Of a stretch of 64,000 nt of DNA, positions 16,908 to 24,631 are shown one piece after another (position 1 is the stretch's first letter; each line of letters begins with the position of its first letter). The position numbers were made by a program, and so were the translations under genes. The stretch comes from Streptomyces sp. NBC_00510 (GTDB taxonomy: Bacteria > Actinomycetota > Actinomycetes > Streptomycetales > Streptomycetaceae). Location: the NCBI GenBank assembly GCA_036013505.1, contig CP107851.1, forward strand, positions 1,674,001 through 1,738,000, in the 5' to 3' direction. The notes beneath the pieces are model-generated. The model saw nothing but the letters and a program-made list of their open reading frames with translations, was not told the DNA's origin and made no database searches.

Positions 16908-17090
16908 CGGGCCGCGGGGGCCCCGTCCCGTCGCCCTCCGCGAGGACCACCGCCGGTCGGATCGCACCGTCAAGTCCCGAACATCAGCGACGTGACGTGC
17001 ACCGACGGCCAAGGCCTACCGGAGGCGTGTGCGCGACCGCCGACCGGCGGGACGGGCACGCACCCGCCCCCAGGACGAAGGAGCCTCGCC

Positions 17091-17624
17091 ATGCCCCGTA
17101 TCCCCCACCTCCGGCGCCGCTCGGTGCTGATGGCCGTGGCGGCCGCGGGCGCGGTCGGCGCGCTCGTGTCGCCGGGTGCCTACGCGGCGGCGCCCGCACC
17201 GGTGACCGTCACCTACGACGCCCGGGCGGCGGGCGAGTTCACCGGCGCGGTCGCCGGCGCCGTCGCCGCGTGGGCCGAGGCGGTGGACAACGTGACCTTC
17301 GTGCCGGTGGCGCCCGGCCGGGTCGCGGACGTCACCATCGTCGCCTTCGACGGCTGGTCCTACGCGGAACAGGAGGAACCCGGCCGCGGCACCGTCCACA
17401 TCGGCCGCCGGGCGGTGGACGAGGGCTACGACCCGACGCAGATCGCGACGCAGGAGCTGGGCCACATCCTCGGTCTCGACGACAAGAAGCCCGGGTCCTG
17501 CTCCAGCCTGATGTCGGGGAGCACGGCCGGCACCTCGTGCCGCAGCCTCCAGCCGGACGAGGCCGAACGGAGCCCCGTGGAGCGCATGTTCGCCGCACGC
17601 CCGCCGGTCGCCGAGGCCGCGTGA
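17091..17624 (+). CDS. Snapalysin-like secreted protein (M7 family) with altered zinc motif
   Basis: 177 aa. A signal peptide (HLRRRSVLMAVAAAG... AYAA) is followed by a mature domain that matches the small neutral protease of Streptomyces in size and layout. The zinc motif should be HExxHxxGxxD; here it reads QELGHILGLDD (residues 121-131). The first zinc ligand is Gln 121 (codon CAG at 17451-17453), while Glu 122, His 125 and Asp 131 remain. The Met-turn (SLMSG, Met 141) and a Cys pair (137, 150) are intact. GAAGGAG precedes the ATG. Catalysis is doubtful. No LysR activator gene is next to it. Confidence 0.8.
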   Translation: MPRIPHLRRRSVLMAVAAAGAVGALVSPGAYAAAPAPVTVTYDARAAGEFTGAVAGAVAAWAEAVDNVTFVPVAPGRVADVTIVAFDGWSYAEQEEPGRGTVHIGRRAVDEGYDPTQIATQELGHILGLDDKKPGSCSSLMSGSTAGTSCRSLQPDEAERSPVERMFAARPPVAEAA

Positions 17625-17637
17625 CCCCGGTCCCGGC

Positions 17638-17688
17638 AGGGCGGGGCCCGGCACACGGCGGCTTGCGCCTCATGTGCCGGGCCGCCCT
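17638..17688 (+). terminator. Hairpin after the snapalysin-like gene
   Basis: GCCCGGCACA (17646-17655) pairs with TGTGCCGGGC (17673-17682). Beyond a 2-base bulge the stem continues with AGGGC/GCCCT. It lies between the convergent snapalysin-like and roadblock genes. Moderate support. Confidence 0.5.
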
Positions 17689-17713
17689 CGGCCGCGGGCT
17701 CGTGGGGGGCGGG

Positions 17714-18088
17714 TCAGACCTCCAGGTCGGCTTCGATGCGCCTGAGCTGGTGGCGGGCCATCGCCAGGTTCGCCCGATCCTTGTCCAGCGCGACGTAGAG
17801 GAACAGCCCCTTGCCCGAGCGGCCGGTCAGCAGCCGGATCATGTGGATCTGGGTGTTGAGCGTGATCAGGATGTCCTCGATGTGCTCCTTGAGGTTGAGC
17901 ATCTCCATGGTGCGCATCTTGGCGCGGACCACGTCGGTGTTGCCCGCGGCCGCGACGGTCAGGTCGAGGTCCTTGGAGCCCCCGAGGGTGCCCAGGGCCA
18001 TGCCGCTGCCGTAGTCCACGAGAGCGACGCCCAGGACGCCCTCGATCGACGTCATTACATCCTTCAGCGCGGTCTCGGTGTTGGCCAT
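17714..18088 (-). CDS. Roadblock/LC7 domain protein (third of three)
   Basis: 124 aa, one roadblock/LC7 (MglB-like) domain: ALKDVMTSIEGVLGVALVDY, then MLNLKEHIEDILITL and TGRSGKGLFLYVALDKDRANLA. Such proteins dimerise and usually act as GAPs or scaffolds for Ras-like GTPases. A good ribosome site (GGAAGTGAG) precedes ATG 18088. It is 116 bp behind roadblock 2, so it may have its own promoter. No GTPase or histidine-kinase-like conservon gene is adjacent. Confidence 0.88.
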   Translation of the reverse strand: MANTETALKDVMTSIEGVLGVALVDYGSGMALGTLGGSKDLDLTVAAAGNTDVVRAKMRTMEMLNLKEHIEDILITLNTQIHMIRLLTGRSGKGLFLYVALDKDRANLAMARHQLRRIEADLEV

Positions 18089-18204
18089 TGCGGTCTCACT
18101 TCCTTGTCGTTGAGTTCTCTGACGTGACGAATGCCTGGGTCCGGTAACGGCGCGGCCGCGTGCGGTGCCCGACGGCTTGTCGGCTGATGAGCTGGGTCCT
18201 ACGG

Positions 18205-18681
18205 TCATTTCCGCTCCTGACGTTGGAGCGCGAGGTCGACGAGATCCTCGATCCGTCGACTGGATCGGCGTGCCTCCAGGTGCAGGCGGCCCACGTTGGA
18301 GCCGGGTCCCGCCACCAGGGCGAGGGCCATGGCCCCGCCGGCGGCGTAGGCGGCGATGTACCCGCGGTCGCCCCTGACGAGCAGTTCCCGGAAGCCGCCG
18401 CATTCGGTGGCCTCCGTGATGCGGGCCGCCACGCCCAGTGCCGCGGCGGTCAGCGCGGCGACCCCCTCCGGTTCCGGCCCGCTCAGGTCGTGCGCGACGA
18501 CCAGGCCGTCGACGCTGGCGACGAGCCCGCCCGTCAGGTGCGGCACCCTCGCCCGCAGGCTCCGGAGTTCGGCCAGTACATCGGCTTCGAGTGCCACCAG
18601 CTGTCTCCTTCCGGCGAGCTGCCGCAGAGCCTTCCTCCACGGTCGTTCGGCGGGCGCCGGGCGGGTCGGCAGGGCGCTCAC
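18205..18681 (-). CDS. Roadblock/LC7 domain protein (second of three)
   Basis: 158 aa. A basic N-terminal extension (ERPWRKALRQLAGRRQ) is followed by a roadblock domain: LRARVPHLTGGLVASVDGLVVAHDL, then ECGGFRELLVRGDRGYIAAYAAG, trimmed in the middle. The C-terminal helix (RRSSRRIEDLVDLALQRQ) is basic. GTG 18681 overlaps the stop of the DUF4388-like gene (GTGA), which implies a coupled product. More divergent than the other two roadblock proteins of this operon. Confidence 0.85.
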   Translation of the reverse strand: MSALPTRPAPAERPWRKALRQLAGRRQLVALEADVLAELRSLRARVPHLTGGLVASVDGLVVAHDLSGPEPEGVAALTAAALGVAARITEATECGGFRELLVRGDRGYIAAYAAGGAMALALVAGPGSNVGRLHLEARRSSRRIEDLVDLALQRQERK

Positions 18682-19643
18682 AGGCGGGCCTCCAGGGCGG
18701 CACGAAGTCGTAGCAACAGGGCGACTGAGGGATCGGAGGACGACAGGACCGCCGGCTGCGGTCCGCCGTGGGCGAAGGGCGCAGGCGCCACCGGTGGCAG
18801 CGGCGCGGGCGGCACCGACGCGGGCGGCACGGGCGCTGAGCGCGCCGGAGCCGCGGGTGCCTGGGCGCGGACCGGCATGCTGATCCGGCCGGTCGCGGCC
18901 AGCCGACGGACGTCCAGCAGGGTCGCGAAGGCGGAACGTCCCAGGTGCCAGGCGATCTGGACCGGCGTACGGGATCCGTCCGCCGCCGCCAGCACCGCCA
19001 ATTGGGCGGGCGTGGGGGCCCTGGCCCGGCCGCCCCGCACCTCGCCCTCGGAGCGGGGGACGACGGGGCCGGCGTCGGTGTCGTCCCACGGCCAGGCCCG
19101 CTCCAGTTGCGCGCGGCGCCGCTGCGCCTCCCTGGCCACGCGCTGGGCGGGGACCGGCCGGGAGATGGGACCCAGCCGGGAGGTGGCACCCGGCTGGAAC
19201 CGGTCGGGTTCCGAGTCGGGCAGCAGGGTGAAGTAGGCGGCGTCGAAGAGCGCCAGCAGGTGGCACAGCTCGAGCTCCCCGCGGGCCACCCGCCCGGTGT
19301 CGACGAGGTGCCCGCCGACGCCACGCTCGGCGCTCGCGGTGGTGACCGCCTCGCGCCACTGGTCCGGGGAGAGCAGCCCGCAGGCCATGAGCCGTACCCC
19401 GAGGTCGGGGGCGCAGGGGCTCTCGGCGTGGACGATCGCCCCCTCGCGCAGGTAGACCGCCCCCGCCGATCCGTACAGCGCCCCGCTGGCCCTCGCCTCC
19501 GCGAGCCGGGCCAGCGCGGCGGTGAAGGCGTACGCGCCCACCACCCCGGCGCGGACCTGGGCCGGCGCGCCACCGCGCGCCGGAATGCGCCGGGGCAGAC
19601 CGCGCACGGCCAGTGCCGGCCGCCCCGCCTCCGTGCCCGTCAT
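18678..19643 (-). CDS. DUF4388/PatA-N-like protein with proline-rich linker
   Basis: 321 aa. Residues 30-150 resemble the DUF4388 module (GALYGSAGAVYLREGAIVHAE; LLSPDQWREAV; CHLLALFDAAYFTLLPD). Then comes an Arg/Ala-rich segment, a short winged-helix-like region (PTPAQLAVLAAADGSRTP; LLDVRRLAATGRI), a Pro/Ala linker (about residues 265-300) and a final amphipathic helix (VALLLRLRAALEARL). ATG 19643 overlaps the stop of roadblock 1, and its own stop overlaps the start of roadblock 2. Probably the hub that links the roadblock dimers; role inferred. Confidence 0.7.
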   Translation of the reverse strand: MTGTEAGRPALAVRGLPRRIPARGGAPAQVRAGVVGAYAFTAALARLAEARASGALYGSAGAVYLREGAIVHAESPCAPDLGVRLMACGLLSPDQWREAVTTASAERGVGGHLVDTGRVARGELELCHLLALFDAAYFTLLPDSEPDRFQPGATSRLGPISRPVPAQRVAREAQRRRAQLERAWPWDDTDAGPVVPRSEGEVRGGRARAPTPAQLAVLAAADGSRTPVQIAWHLGRSAFATLLDVRRLAATGRISMPVRAQAPAAPARSAPVPPASVPPAPLPPVAPAPFAHGGPQPAVLSSSDPSVALLLRLRAALEARL

Positions 19644-20023
19644 ACGAGCACCAGCCGCTCGGCGATGGACTGCAGCCCGAGCCGGGCGACGGCCAGGTTG
19701 GCCATCGACCGGTCCAGCCACAGGTAGAGGATGACGTCGCTGTCGAAGGAGGTGTCGAGGAAGCGGATGAGGTGGTAACTCCCCGGGGCGGTGATGATGA
19801 TGTCCTCGACCGGCACCCTTCCGGACTCCTTCGCGGTGAAGGTACCGCCCTCCACGACCGCCCGCGCCGCCTCGGTGGTGTCCGCGGCGGCCGCCTCGTG
19901 ACCGTGTCCCGGCTCCTGCCCGACCGCCCCGAGGAGCAGGCCGCTGCTCCAGTCGACCACGCTCGCCCCGAGCACACCGGGAATCGCCAGCGCCTCGGAA
20001 AGGCACTCGTCTATGCCGGGCAC
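19640..20023 (-). CDS. Roadblock/LC7 domain protein (first of three)
   Basis: 127 aa with one roadblock domain: CLSEALAIPGVLGASVVDWS, a central AAADTTEAARAVVEGG, VEDIIITAPGSYHLIRFL, and SDVILYLWLDRSMANLAVAR. GTG 20023 is preferred to GTG 20029 because GAAGG (20031-20035) is then 7 bp away rather than 1. It is the first gene of a tightly overlapping run with the DUF4388-like and second roadblock genes. Confidence 0.87.
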   Translation of the reverse strand: MPGIDECLSEALAIPGVLGASVVDWSSGLLLGAVGQEPGHGHEAAAADTTEAARAVVEGGTFTAKESGRVPVEDIIITAPGSYHLIRFLDTSFDSDVILYLWLDRSMANLAVARLGLQSIAERLVLV

Positions 20024-20158
20024 GCGCACCCCTTCGCCGCCACTTCTGGTATACGGAACAGCACGGAACGTTACTCATCCCGTACGCGAAAAAGGTGAGT
20101 TGGGGCATTTTCCGGAGGCATGTGCGGGCGACTCGCTAGGATTCGCCGCCCCTTGTGA

Positions 20159-21502
20159 TCAGTCGGCGCAATTGTCCTCTGGACCGCCCCTGGCGATCCG
20201 CGCGAGGACGCCCAGCGCGTCGCCCAGGACCTGCGGGGACGGCGAGGCGAGGCCGATCCGTACGGCGTGCGGCGCGCTGCCGCGGCCCGCGGCGAAGGCG
20301 GCCGCGGGGGTGACGGCGATGCCCTGCCGGGCGGCGGCCGCGACGAAGGTGTCGGCGCGCCAGGGCCCGGGCAGCCGCCACCAGCAGAAGCAGGCACGCG
20401 GATCCGCCGTGACCGAGAACCCGGCGAGGCGCTCGGCGGCGATGCGGGCCCGCGCGGCCGCGTCACGCCGCTTGGCCGCCACCACCGCGTCCACGGCGCC
20501 GTCGGCGATCCACCGGCAGGCGGCGGCCAGCGCGAAACCGGAGGCCGCCGTGGCCGCCGAGCGCAAGGCCGCGGAAACCGGGGCGGATAGCTCCCGCGGA
20601 GTGAGCACGACGCCGGCGGTGAGCCCGGGGGCGAGCCGCTTGGAGAGGCTGTCGACCAGGACCACGCGGTCGGGGGCGTACGCCGCGAGCGGCGGCGGGG
20701 CGTCCGCGGCGAGGAATCCCCAGACGGCGTCCTCGACGGCGTGCAGGCCCAGCCGGCCGAGGGTGTCGGCGAGTTCGGCCCGGCGGCCCTCCGGCATGGT
20801 GACGCCGAGCGGATTGTGCAGGGTGGGCTGGGTGTAGAGCGCGTGCAGCGGGGCGGCCCGGTGGAGTTCCGCGAGGGCGTCGGGACGCAACCCGTGCTCG
20901 TCGCAGGCGACGGGGACGAGCGCGATCCCGAGCCGCGTGGCGAGCGCCTTGACCACGGGGTAGGTGAGCGCCTCCACGGCGAGCCGGCCGCCGGGCGGGA
21001 CGAGCGCGGCCAGGGCGGCGGCGATGGCCTGGCGTCCGTTGCCCGCGAAGAGCAGCCGCCCGGGGTCGGGGCGTGGGCCGGTACGGGCGAGCAGTTCGGC
21101 GAAGGCGTCGCGCGCGGCCGGGGTGCCCGCGGCGGTCAGCGGGCGCAGCGCGGCACCGAGGACGTCGGGGCGCTGCAGCGCGGCGAGCGCAGGGGCGAGC
21201 AGCTGCGACTGGCCCTCGGCGACGGGGTGGCTCAGCTCCAGGTCGATCCGCTGGGGTGCCGGCTCGGCGAGGGCGGGTCCCGTGGCGGGCGGTGCGGCAC
21301 GCACGAAGGTGCCGCGTCCCACCTCGCCCACGACCAGGCCGCGGCGGGCGAGTTCGGCGTAGACGCGGATCGCCGTGGAGTTGGCGATGCCGTGCGCCCG
21401 CGCGAAGGTCCGCTGCGGTACGAGCCGGTCGCCGGGGCGCAGCCGTCCGGCGGCGATGTCGGCCGCCACGGCGTCGGCGACCGTGCGGTAGTCGTCCCTC
21501 AC
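20159..21502 (-). CDS. MocR-type regulator: GntR winged helix fused to aminotransferase class I fold
   Basis: 447 aa. The GntR/WhiC-type HTH (DDYRTVADAVAADIAAGRLRPGDRL, trimmed; then STAIRVYAELARRGLVVGEVGRGTFV) is followed by a PLP aminotransferase fold: TQPTLHNPLGVTMP, AVEDAVWGFLA, and the PLP-Lys region VLVDSLSKRLAPGL. It starts at GTG 21502 and is divergent from an alpha/beta hydrolase gene. The gap holds two 13-bp direct repeats, the operator style of MocR proteins such as PdxR and GabR. Effector unknown; probably pyridoxal phosphate plus an amine. Confidence 0.87.
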   Translation of the reverse strand: MRDDYRTVADAVAADIAAGRLRPGDRLVPQRTFARAHGIANSTAIRVYAELARRGLVVGEVGRGTFVRAAPPATGPALAEPAPQRIDLELSHPVAEGQSQLLAPALAALQRPDVLGAALRPLTAAGTPAARDAFAELLARTGPRPDPGRLLFAGNGRQAIAAALAALVPPGGRLAVEALTYPVVKALATRLGIALVPVACDEHGLRPDALAELHRAAPLHALYTQPTLHNPLGVTMPEGRRAELADTLGRLGLHAVEDAVWGFLAADAPPPLAAYAPDRVVLVDSLSKRLAPGLTAGVVLTPRELSAPVSAALRSAATAASGFALAAACRWIADGAVDAVVAAKRRDAAARARIAAERLAGFSVTADPRACFCWWRLPGPWRADTFVAAAARQGIAVTPAAAFAAGRGSAPHAVRIGLASPSPQVLGDALGVLARIARGGPEDNCAD

Positions 21503-22474: not shown

Positions 22475-24631
22475 TCAGGGCGTGGTGTCGACCAGCGAGA
22501 GCGAGTGGAGGCGGTCGGGCGGGCCGGGCCTCGCGTAGTACCAGCCCTGCGCGGTGTCGCAGCCCAGCGCGCGCAGGTGCTCGGCCTGGGTGCCGGTCTC
22601 GACGCCCTCCACCGTCACCGACAGCCCGAGGGTGTGCGCCAGGTCGACGACGATCTCCACGATCTTCACGTCCACCGGGTCGGCCTGCTGCTGCTGCATC
22701 CCGCGCGTGAAGGAGCGGTCGAGCTTGAGCGTGGTGATGGGCAGCCGGCGCAGGGAGGCGAGGTTGGAGTAGCCGGTGCCGAAGTCGTCGAGGGCGATGG
22801 CCATGCCGAGTTCGGCGAACTCCCGCAACGGGCGCAGCAGTTCCTCGTCGGCGCCGATGAAGGCGCTCTCGGTGACCTCCAGGCACAGCGCGGTCGGCTC
22901 CAGCCCGGCGTCCTTGATCACCGCGAGGGTCTCCGGGACGAGGCCGGGGTGGCCGAGCTGGGCCGGGGAGAGGTTGACGTTGATCCGCAGCGGGTGGCCG
23001 TCGCTGCGCGGGAACTGCCAGTCCCGGGCCTGCCAGGCGGCCTGCTGCAGCACCCAGTGGCCGAGCGGCACGATCAGCCCGGTGCTCTCGGCGAGCGGGA
23101 TGAACTGGTCGGGACCGAGGATCCCGTGCACCGGATGGCACCAGCGCACCAGTGCCTCGGCGCCGCGGACGCTGCCGTCGCCGAGCCGTACCAGCGGCTG
23201 GTACTCGATGAAGAACTCGCCGCGCTCCAGGGCCGTCGGCAGCCGGTTGGTCAGCCCGTGCCGGGTGATGGCGCGCGCGTCGGAGTCGGGGTCGGCCAGC
23301 TCGAAGCGGTTCCCGCCCGCGGCCTTGGCCCGGTACATCGTGATGTCGGCGCTGCGCAGCACCTCGGCGGGGCCCAGGGAGCCGGCCTGGCCCTCGACGA
23401 TGCCGATGCTGCACCGTACGGACAGCTCGCGGCCGTCCACCCGGATCGGGTCGGCCAGCGCGGCCAGGATCAGGTCGGCGAGGCCGGTGATGTCCGCGCG
23501 GCTGGCGGGGTTGACGACCAGTGCGGCGAACTCGTCGCCGCCGATGCGGGCCACGAGCTGGTCGGGCGAGCTGACGCAGGCCTGGAGGCGTTCGGCGACG
23601 GCGACCAGGAGCCGGTCGCCGATGGCGTGGCCGAGGCTGTCGTTGACGTCCTTGAAGCCGTCCAGGTCGAGGTAGCAGACGCCGACGCCCACGCCCTCGG
23701 GGCCGTTCAGCGTCTGCTCCAGGCGCTCGAAGAAGAGGTTGCGGTTGGCCAGGCCGGTGAGCGCGTCGTGGGTCGCCTCGTGCCGGAGCCGCTCGCTGAG
23801 CAGGCGCTCCTCGGTGATGTCCTCCATCAGCGCGAGCATGTACTGCGGGGTCCCGCCGGCGTCGCGCAGCAGGGAGACCGTCAGGTTGGTCCACAGCGCG
23901 GTGCCGTCGGGCCGGTAGTAGGCCTTCTCGATGCGGTAGTGGTCGCGCTCGCCCCGGTTGAGCTGGCGCTGCATCTCCCAGACCTCGGGGGCGTCGTCGG
24001 GGTGCGCCCAGTCGTAGACGTTCCTGCTGCGGATGTGGCGTTCCAGGCCGCCGAACATGGTGGTGAGGGCGGCGTTGACGTCCAGGATGCGGCCGTCCAT
24101 GTCGGCGATGCCGATGCCTATGGACGCGTCCTGGAAGACCGCCCGGAAACGGACCTCGCTCTCGTGCAGGGCCTGCTCGGTGGCGGCCCGGGCGGCCAGC
24201 GCCGCCTTGGAGAGGGCCTCCTGCTCGGTCCGCGTGCGTTCCTGCAGGGCGCGGGCGTACCCGGCGGCCACCCAGTGCTGGAGGCGGTTGCAGCGGGTGC
24301 GGCCGTCCTCGGGGAACAGGGCGGGGCCGGGCGGGCAGTACAGCAGCAGGTAGGCGTCGACGACGTCGAGGATGCGGGGCAGCGCCTCGGGGTCGGTGCA
24401 GTGCGCGGCCACGAGCGCGGCGCCGACCTCCGCGGCCGGGCGGGGGTCGAAGGGCTGCGCGCGCAGCGTGGCGTCCAGACGCGCGGCGAGCGGGAGCAGG
24501 TACTCCTCGAACTCGCCGCGTGTCATGGAGGTGGCGGTGGCCGGGTAGATCGCCCGGCTCCAGATGATCGCGAAGCGCCGCAGGCTGTCGGCGGGCTCCG
24601 GCTCCGGGCCGGGCTCCCTGCTCACGGTCAC
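22475..24631 (-). CDS. rmdA: PAS-GGDEF-EAL c-di-GMP turnover protein (RmdA-like)
   Basis: 718 aa, cytoplasmic. An N-terminal helical region (about 1-150) is followed by a PAS/PAC unit (FRAVFQDASIGIGIADMDG; MEDITEERL), GGDEF (ARIGGDEFAAL intact) and EAL (GAEALVRW, NVNLSP, LEVTES, ALDDFGTGYSNL, VEGVET all present). The allosteric RxxD site before GGDEF is degenerate (SSPD). Both enzymatic halves keep their key residues, so net activity cannot be assigned. Layout and size match Streptomyces RmdA. GTG 24631 overlaps the stop of the DUF574 methyltransferase gene (GTGA). Confidence 0.88.
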   Translation of the reverse strand: MTVSREPGPEPEPADSLRRFAIIWSRAIYPATATSMTRGEFEEYLLPLAARLDATLRAQPFDPRPAAEVGAALVAAHCTDPEALPRILDVVDAYLLLYCPPGPALFPEDGRTRCNRLQHWVAAGYARALQERTRTEQEALSKAALAARAATEQALHESEVRFRAVFQDASIGIGIADMDGRILDVNAALTTMFGGLERHIRSRNVYDWAHPDDAPEVWEMQRQLNRGERDHYRIEKAYYRPDGTALWTNLTVSLLRDAGGTPQYMLALMEDITEERLLSERLRHEATHDALTGLANRNLFFERLEQTLNGPEGVGVGVCYLDLDGFKDVNDSLGHAIGDRLLVAVAERLQACVSSPDQLVARIGGDEFAALVVNPASRADITGLADLILAALADPIRVDGRELSVRCSIGIVEGQAGSLGPAEVLRSADITMYRAKAAGGNRFELADPDSDARAITRHGLTNRLPTALERGEFFIEYQPLVRLGDGSVRGAEALVRWCHPVHGILGPDQFIPLAESTGLIVPLGHWVLQQAAWQARDWQFPRSDGHPLRINVNLSPAQLGHPGLVPETLAVIKDAGLEPTALCLEVTESAFIGADEELLRPLREFAELGMAIALDDFGTGYSNLASLRRLPITTLKLDRSFTRGMQQQQADPVDVKIVEIVVDLAHTLGLSVTVEGVETGTQAEHLRALGCDTAQGWYYARPGPPDRLHSLSLVDTTP

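Follow-up and report, generated by a model that had tools for sequence, protein, structure and literature searches.

A conserved GTPase-less roadblock cassette of Streptomycetaceae and its possible connection to conservon GTPases

Gene content and layout of the cassette

The window analyzed here is a 64,000-nucleotide stretch of contig CP107851.1 of Streptomyces sp. NBC_00510. Four minus-strand genes at 17714–20023 constitute a unit coding for a protein of the RB1/RB3 roadblock family (RB1), a multi-domain sensor-scaffold (D) and two further roadblocks, RB2 and RB3 (Table 1). The original prediction of a four-gene unit without a GTPase, kinase or separate DUF742 gene is borne out. The starts adopted for RB1 and RB2 both differ from those of the longest open reading frames: for RB1, the GTG at 20023 is favored over that at 20029, with the orthologues opening with MPGIDECL, and for RB2 the most likely start is the GTG at 18597, which is preceded by the Shine-Dalgarno-like GAAGGAGA and coincides with where the orthologues also begin. 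The earlier description of the set as one overlapping operon is accurate for RB1 and D, which share an ATGA overlap, but not for the remaining genes, as gaps of 80 and 116 nt separate D from RB2 and RB2 from RB3, respectively. Over 20 loci the median gaps are −4 (RB1–D), 79.5 (D–RB2) and 109 nt (RB2–RB3), with the RB1–D gap being exactly −4 nt in 15 of the 20 gene-called loci. Promoter and terminator scans of positions 17400–20400 found none. Convergent to the cassette lies a gene for a Peptidase M7 (snapalysin-like) protein (16992–17624, plus strand; Pfam E 1e-17), and the product of a nearby minus-strand gene (22475–24631) resembles, by eye, a PAS-GGDEF-EAL cyclic-di-GMP protein.

Table 1. 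Features of the cassette, in window positions
Feature	Position	Strand	Description	Basis
RB1	19640..20023	-	127 aa, member of the RB1/RB3 family, starting at GTG 20023	
D	18678..19643	-	321 aa sensor-scaffold; ATGA overlap with RB1	
D residues 59-177	19113..19469	-	DUF4388 (PATAN)-like	Pfam PF14332 E 8e-4
D residues 212-252	18888..19010	-	winged-helix-like, DUF742/CvnC-related	HTH_47 E 0.17; CvnC profile
D residues 305-320	18684..18731	-	conserved terminal helix, consensus DPDxALLRRLRDALEA	alignment
RB2	18205..18597	-	130 aa, CvnB/MglB-type roadblock	
Shine-Dalgarno-like GAAGGAGA of RB2	18604..18611	-		sequence
RB3	17714..18088	-	124 aa, roadblock, unnamed cross-phylum family	

RB2 and the RB1/RB3 family

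In a Pfam scan of the window proteins only RB2 matches the Robl_LC7 profile (PF03259; E 6e-15, 55 bits against a cut-off of 23, scanned with its longer start), with RB1 and RB3 showing no match. Profile searches with RB2 recover CvnB5 (3leq, 3e-9) and Thermus MglB (1e-4), and profile-profile comparisons unite it with CvnB (E 2e-11) and with the roadblock of proteobacterial operons, RBB (E 9e-13). Thus, on the strength of its sequence relationships RB2 is a CvnB/MglB-type roadblock. It shares with both CvnB and RBB a stripe of small residues on helix α2, the face by which roadblocks contact GTPases. At the same time, it is distinguished from CvnB by an α3 motif, NVGRLH.E.R, which is invariant in 20/20 RB2 proteins and lacking in CvnB, and in the RB2 tree the versions from the present cassette (cassette A) and from a second kind described below (cassette B) are joined (89/90) separately from CvnB (95/95).

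RB1 and RB3 are, by profile comparison, one unnamed family (hhalign E 4e-22), which is absent as a named family from Pfam and NCBIfam. This family has no detectable sequence similarity to CvnB or RB2 in profile comparisons (E ≥ 0.26), and none of the sequence searches linking it to known roadblocks succeeded; the weak matches are to LAMTOR5 in 12 of 57 RB3 relatives (best E 0.006) and to Robl_LC7 in three of the same 57 and in 3/15 RB1 homologues (best E 0.015). Its assignment to the roadblocks comes instead from an AlphaFold2 model of RB3 (57-sequence input; pLDDT 86.3, pTM 0.81) with the element order a-b-b-a-b-b-b-a. In Foldseek searches with this model roadblocks head the list (E 1e-7 to 1e-5), with TM-scores of 0.72–0.80 for roadblocks other than MglC, among them 0.80 for S. 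avermitilis 3kye_C and 0.78 for MglB, and the VIA Z values are 16.7 for an Asgard roadblock, 16.6 for MglB and 15.7 for LAMTOR2. The predicted fold thereby makes the identification of RB3 as a roadblock secure. Accordingly, of the three roadblocks in the original prediction, RB2 is confirmed by a direct profile match and RB3 by its predicted fold, and RB1 would be a roadblock through its homology to RB3. Orthology of RB3 to MglC is less secure than the fold: M. xanthus MglC has the top Foldseek E-value (1.3e-7), but its superposition is poorer (TM 0.58, Z 12.1) and sequence searches found no match to MglC.

Domain architecture of D

The sequence of D suggests a DUF4388 (PATAN)-like N-terminal half, a DUF742/CvnC-like winged helix (wHTH), a proline-rich linker and a conserved terminal helix. 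The first of these agrees with the original proposal: the PF14332 match, at 19.8 bits, falls under the curated cut-off of 25, and among 20 D homologues 14 match the profile at E ≤ 0.1, the best with 4e-4; a genome search with PF14332 found nothing at 1e-3. The linker and terminal helix, too, are seen in the alignment as described earlier. The claim that DUF742 is missing holds for a separate gene but not for the domain, as the wHTH of D is itself DUF742-like: hhalign aligns it to CvnC with E 1.5e-5 and a probability of 80%, and Pfam DUF742 matches 2/20 D homologues (best 0.009), though a search with a CvnC HMM at E ≤ 1e-3 recovers no D. Searches of the PDB with D yielded weak regulator matches only (E ≥ 0.2).

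The wHTH raises the alternative that D binds DNA as a transcriptional regulator under roadblock control. A plasmid-borne D is annotated as a "transcriptional regulator", and Wuichet and Sogaard-Andersen (PMC4316618) proposed a role in gene regulation for the Group 3 protein, in which receiver-like and wHTH-like regions are combined. However, in profile comparisons the wHTH of D comes closest to CvnC (DUF742) and not to any classical DNA-binding family, HTH matches are weak (HTH_47 in 3/20 D homologues, best 0.012), and no conserved target gene adjoins the cassette across 20 loci. We therefore consider direct DNA-binding regulation unlikely.

In a single-sequence model of D (pLDDT 40.5 overall) the terminal helix alone is confident (block pLDDT 72–83). 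A helix pattern, composed after inspection of the D tails themselves, is found in 18 of 20 cassette D tails (shuffled mean 2.4, max 8), in 46 of 65 D tails from the GTPase-type operons discussed below (shuffled mean 5.7, max 14) and in 0/13 D tails of cassette B. As profiles, the Streptomyces and proteobacterial versions of D show no match over their length (E 0.013, probability 3%); CvnC is matched separately by Streptomyces D (1.5e-5) and by D of the GTPase-type operons (5.6e-5). Hence, the wHTH, linked via CvnC, appears to be the sole part common to both kinds of D.

Conservation of the four-gene order

A close relative of D (E < 1e-39) is present in 28 of 37 genomes of Streptomycetaceae. 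In the 20 of these in which gene order was examined (17.6–20 kb per locus) the order RB1-D-RB2-RB3 is kept at 20/20 loci, and a phylum-wide draw, in which RB3 is found in 19 of 296 genomes, contributed seven further four-gene loci with the same order. Conservation of the order beyond the strain, set beforehand as the test of the idea, is thus observed at 27/27 loci. RB3 is 78–100% identical across most of the genus. The surroundings vary, with every other protein cluster confined to at most five of the 20 loci; as the four-gene order recurs in 27 genomes despite such differing neighborhoods, it is more than a chance arrangement. GTPase, CvnA and CvnC HMMs found none near the 27 cassettes, the only hits being weak ABC-ATPase matches in L089 and L092; within Streptomycetaceae, then, a GTPase is not part of the unit. 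The same four genes are also present on a linear Streptomyces plasmid.

Cassette B combines D and RB2 with a divergent RB3 in 11/11 loci; an RB1-like gene was called in 8 of the 11. Gene calls throughout come from a simple purpose-made caller, which may miss short genes; at L213 a 494-nt gap lies at the expected RB2 position. The NBC_00510 genome itself has a second D–RB2 pair (L010:876-2796, 2.94 Mb) followed by a gene for a 145-aa protein, with no RB3 called nearby and a D tail lacking the helix pattern. In single-contig genomes the distance from cassette A to the contig end is 3–17% in 10 genomes of the same genus as against 34–46% in five genomes of genus g17. In the latter genus one neighboring gene, which we take to resemble urocanate hydratase, is common to 4/7 cassette A loci.

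GTPase-bearing operons with RB3 relatives

The Streptomyces RB3 family is connected to a proteobacterial RB3 family by a profile match of E 2e-43. We surveyed the genome loci of the best 80 of the 591 matches listed to a Comamonas RB3, a sample that favors Proteobacteria. Among these best 80 of 591, 66 loci have a same-strand GTPase with a P-loop and 62 the full set of D, GTPase, roadblock and RB3; Microbacteriaceae are among them. By their operon make-up, as distinct from a GTPase tree, these would be of the Group 3 MglA kind, the neighborhood of which was published by Wuichet and Sogaard-Andersen in 2014 (PMC4316618). Such systems (e.g., the mgl locus of Snodgrassella) resemble the Streptomyces cassette in having a sensor-plus-wHTH protein and roadblocks of two types, including an RB3-like one; RB2 as well as RB3 of the cassette has a match among the proteobacterial profiles. 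In contrast, it lacks an MglA-family GTPase and has RB1 as an extra component, and its D, with a PATAN-like N-domain where Group 3 has a receiver-like or BLUF domain, is not homologous over its length. Accordingly, the initial statement that no described function was known for this arrangement was too strong, since distant RB3 relatives sit in GTPase operons of a known type (66/80, best 80 of 591). With respect to the RB1-D-RB2-RB3 set itself, our search of the open-access literature found no paper.

In the RB3 tree, which omits the GTPase-linked RB3 of L218 and L219, a 97/96 branch divides 13 GTPase-operon rows from the remaining 44, suggesting that the GTPase-less state is old. This bears on whether the cassette is the decaying remains of an operon that once had a GTPase, as related operons elsewhere still do. 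The four genes, however, stay together and are well conserved in 27 genomes, RB3 retains its high identity over most of the genus, and in the tree the rows without a GTPase stand apart. Given this conservation, we regard decay as very improbable.

Linkage of RB3 to conservons

Streptomyces species have many conservon G-protein systems, the wiring of which is poorly understood. At least seven P-loop-containing conservon GTPases are encoded in the NBC_00510 genome. A conservon lies within the stretch examined at eight of 24 loci with an orphan RB3 (L109, L232–L236 (family f3), L231 and L238). In family f3, where 8 of the 11 RB3 matches outside cassette B were covered (G049:C26, G050:C937 and G050:C945 being left out), 6/8 orphan loci adjoin a conservon in divergent orientation at 400–750 nt; in genus g17 it is 2/6, with the conservon 1.6–1.8 kb upstream, and in the other groups 0/10. 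The gene calls include the complete Cvn quartet at six of the eight conservon-linked loci, the exceptions being L236, without a called CvnB, and L231, where CvnA and CvnB fall within one call. The eight conservon-linked RB3 genes occupy two places in the RB3 tree. RB3 is apparently an extra component of the conservons that it adjoins; it goes unmentioned in the accessible text of PMC13343842, and the RB1/RB3 family lies outside the conservon core published there. The cassette resembles conservons (CvnA–D) in RB2, which is CvnB-like, and, going by the profile comparison, in the wHTH of D, which would be CvnC-like, but has neither the histidine-kinase-like CvnA nor the Ras-like GTPase CvnD.

Of the two functions entertained at the outset, these conservon-linked RB3 genes lend support to the recruitment of a GTPase encoded elsewhere. 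The other remains a rival, namely a self-contained scaffold or polarity complex in which hetero-oligomers of the three roadblocks would form on D and serve to localise or tether some target without a nucleotide switch. It would account for the absence of a GTPase from all 27 cassettes, the separation of the GTPase-operon rows from the other 44 in the RB3 tree and the travel of cassettes on plasmids. Against it, RB2 retains the α2 face found in GTPase-coupled roadblocks, and in Proteobacteria, Microbacteriaceae and family f3 the RB3 genes show linkage to GTPase systems. We hold such GTPase independence to be somewhat unlikely.

A proposed complex serving GTPases in trans

We posit, with a probability of about 0.5, that the cassette specifies a RomR/MglC/MglB-like complex without an MglA of its own, which would serve conservon GTPases in trans. 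In Myxococcus, the terminal helix of RomR binds MglC, which bridges to MglB, and MglA-GTP breaks the MglC–MglB contact, with MglC not binding MglA (PMC10329633, PMC12719032, PMC7949163). With this chain, from the RomR C-terminal helix through MglC to MglB, as the model, we infer the protein contacts, the GTPase in trans and the direction of signalling as follows. D, which also bears the CvnC-like winged helix, would receive an input via its PATAN-like domain and dock by its terminal helix on an RB3/RB1-family dimer; this dimer would itself hold the RB2 dimer. RB2 might then act through its small-residue α2 face on one or more CvnD proteins made elsewhere, and CvnD-GTP could break the RB3–RB2 contact, as MglA-GTP does with MglC–MglB.

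This trans-GTPase reading is favored by the cassette having the same kinds of parts as the Myxococcus complex except for MglA: a sensor-domain scaffold with a disordered proline-rich linker and terminal helix, one MglB-type and one non-MglB-type roadblock. It is further favored by the preserved α2 stripe of RB2 alongside the seven or more P-loop conservon GTPases of the same genome. Also consistent with it are the 27/27 ordered loci without GTPase, CvnA or CvnC matches, the profile matches of RB2 to CvnB and the proteobacterial roadblock, those of RB3 to proteobacterial RB3, with a GTPase at 66/80 such loci (best 80 of 591 listed), the orphan RB3 genes adjoining conservons (8/24), the predicted roadblock fold of RB3 with MglC as best Foldseek E-value, and the D-tail helix pattern (18/20 and 46/65, for a pattern composed post hoc). 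On the other side, MglC is not nearest to RB3 by superposition and sequence searches found no match to it, and the D profiles of Streptomyces and Proteobacteria do not match. In further departures from the Myxococcus complex, there are two RB1/RB3-type proteins, D has a PATAN-like domain and wHTH in place of the receiver domain, and the acidic, tryptophan-bearing sequence seen in RomR is missing from the tail of D. As for the conservon partnership, no conservon adjoins 16 of the 24 loci with an orphan RB3 or any of the 27 cassettes.

The Ragulator (LAMTOR), in which several different roadblocks likewise assemble on one scaffold, suggests a variant: a bacterial hub in the form of a GTPase-free platform, built from a single sensor scaffold and three different roadblocks, that would serve several conservon GTPases. 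The weak LAMTOR5 signal (12/57, best E 0.006) and the superposition of the RB3 model on LAMTOR2 (Z 15.7) are in line with this, but neither the wrapped scaffold nor the Rag-like GTPases have counterpart evidence in the cassette, and we view the hub as rather unlikely. If it were real, it would integrate the states of several conservon GTPases rather than that of one cognate GTPase.

As far as our searches show, the four-gene GTPase-less set, the cross-phylum RB1/RB3 family and the linkage of this family to conservons are apparently new. PMC4316618 already includes the GTPase-bearing kind, a PATAN–MglB neighborhood and an actinobacterial MglB clade consisting exclusively of orphans, and states that as of 2014 no orphan MglB had been characterized; the cassette provides a defined and testable orphan set. 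A conserved cassette with regulators but no switch would be a missing link among conservon systems, and RB3 would represent an unnamed cross-phylum family common to GTPase systems of Group 2 (conservon) and of the Group 3-like kind.

RB3 relatives on plasmids and viral contigs

Searches of phage records for RB3 found none; a relative is encoded on four IMG/VR viral contigs (L209–L212). Relatives are carried by plasmids of Deinococcus (56%), Comamonas (51%), Agarilytica (50%), Acinetobacter (48%) and Hymenobacter (37%). On a plasmid of Deinococcus sp. QL22 (L126:4363-5320) an annotated DUF4388 gene immediately precedes the RB3 homologue, extending the PATAN–RB3 pairing beyond Actinomycetota. 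On an Agarilytica plasmid (L115:6001-8072) RB3 shares an operon with genes for a blue-light-sensing BLUF protein, a Ras-like GTPase and a roadblock; one D of the GTPase-type operons is such a BLUF protein (8e-23), and the Agarilytica operon possibly represents light input to a bacterial small GTPase.
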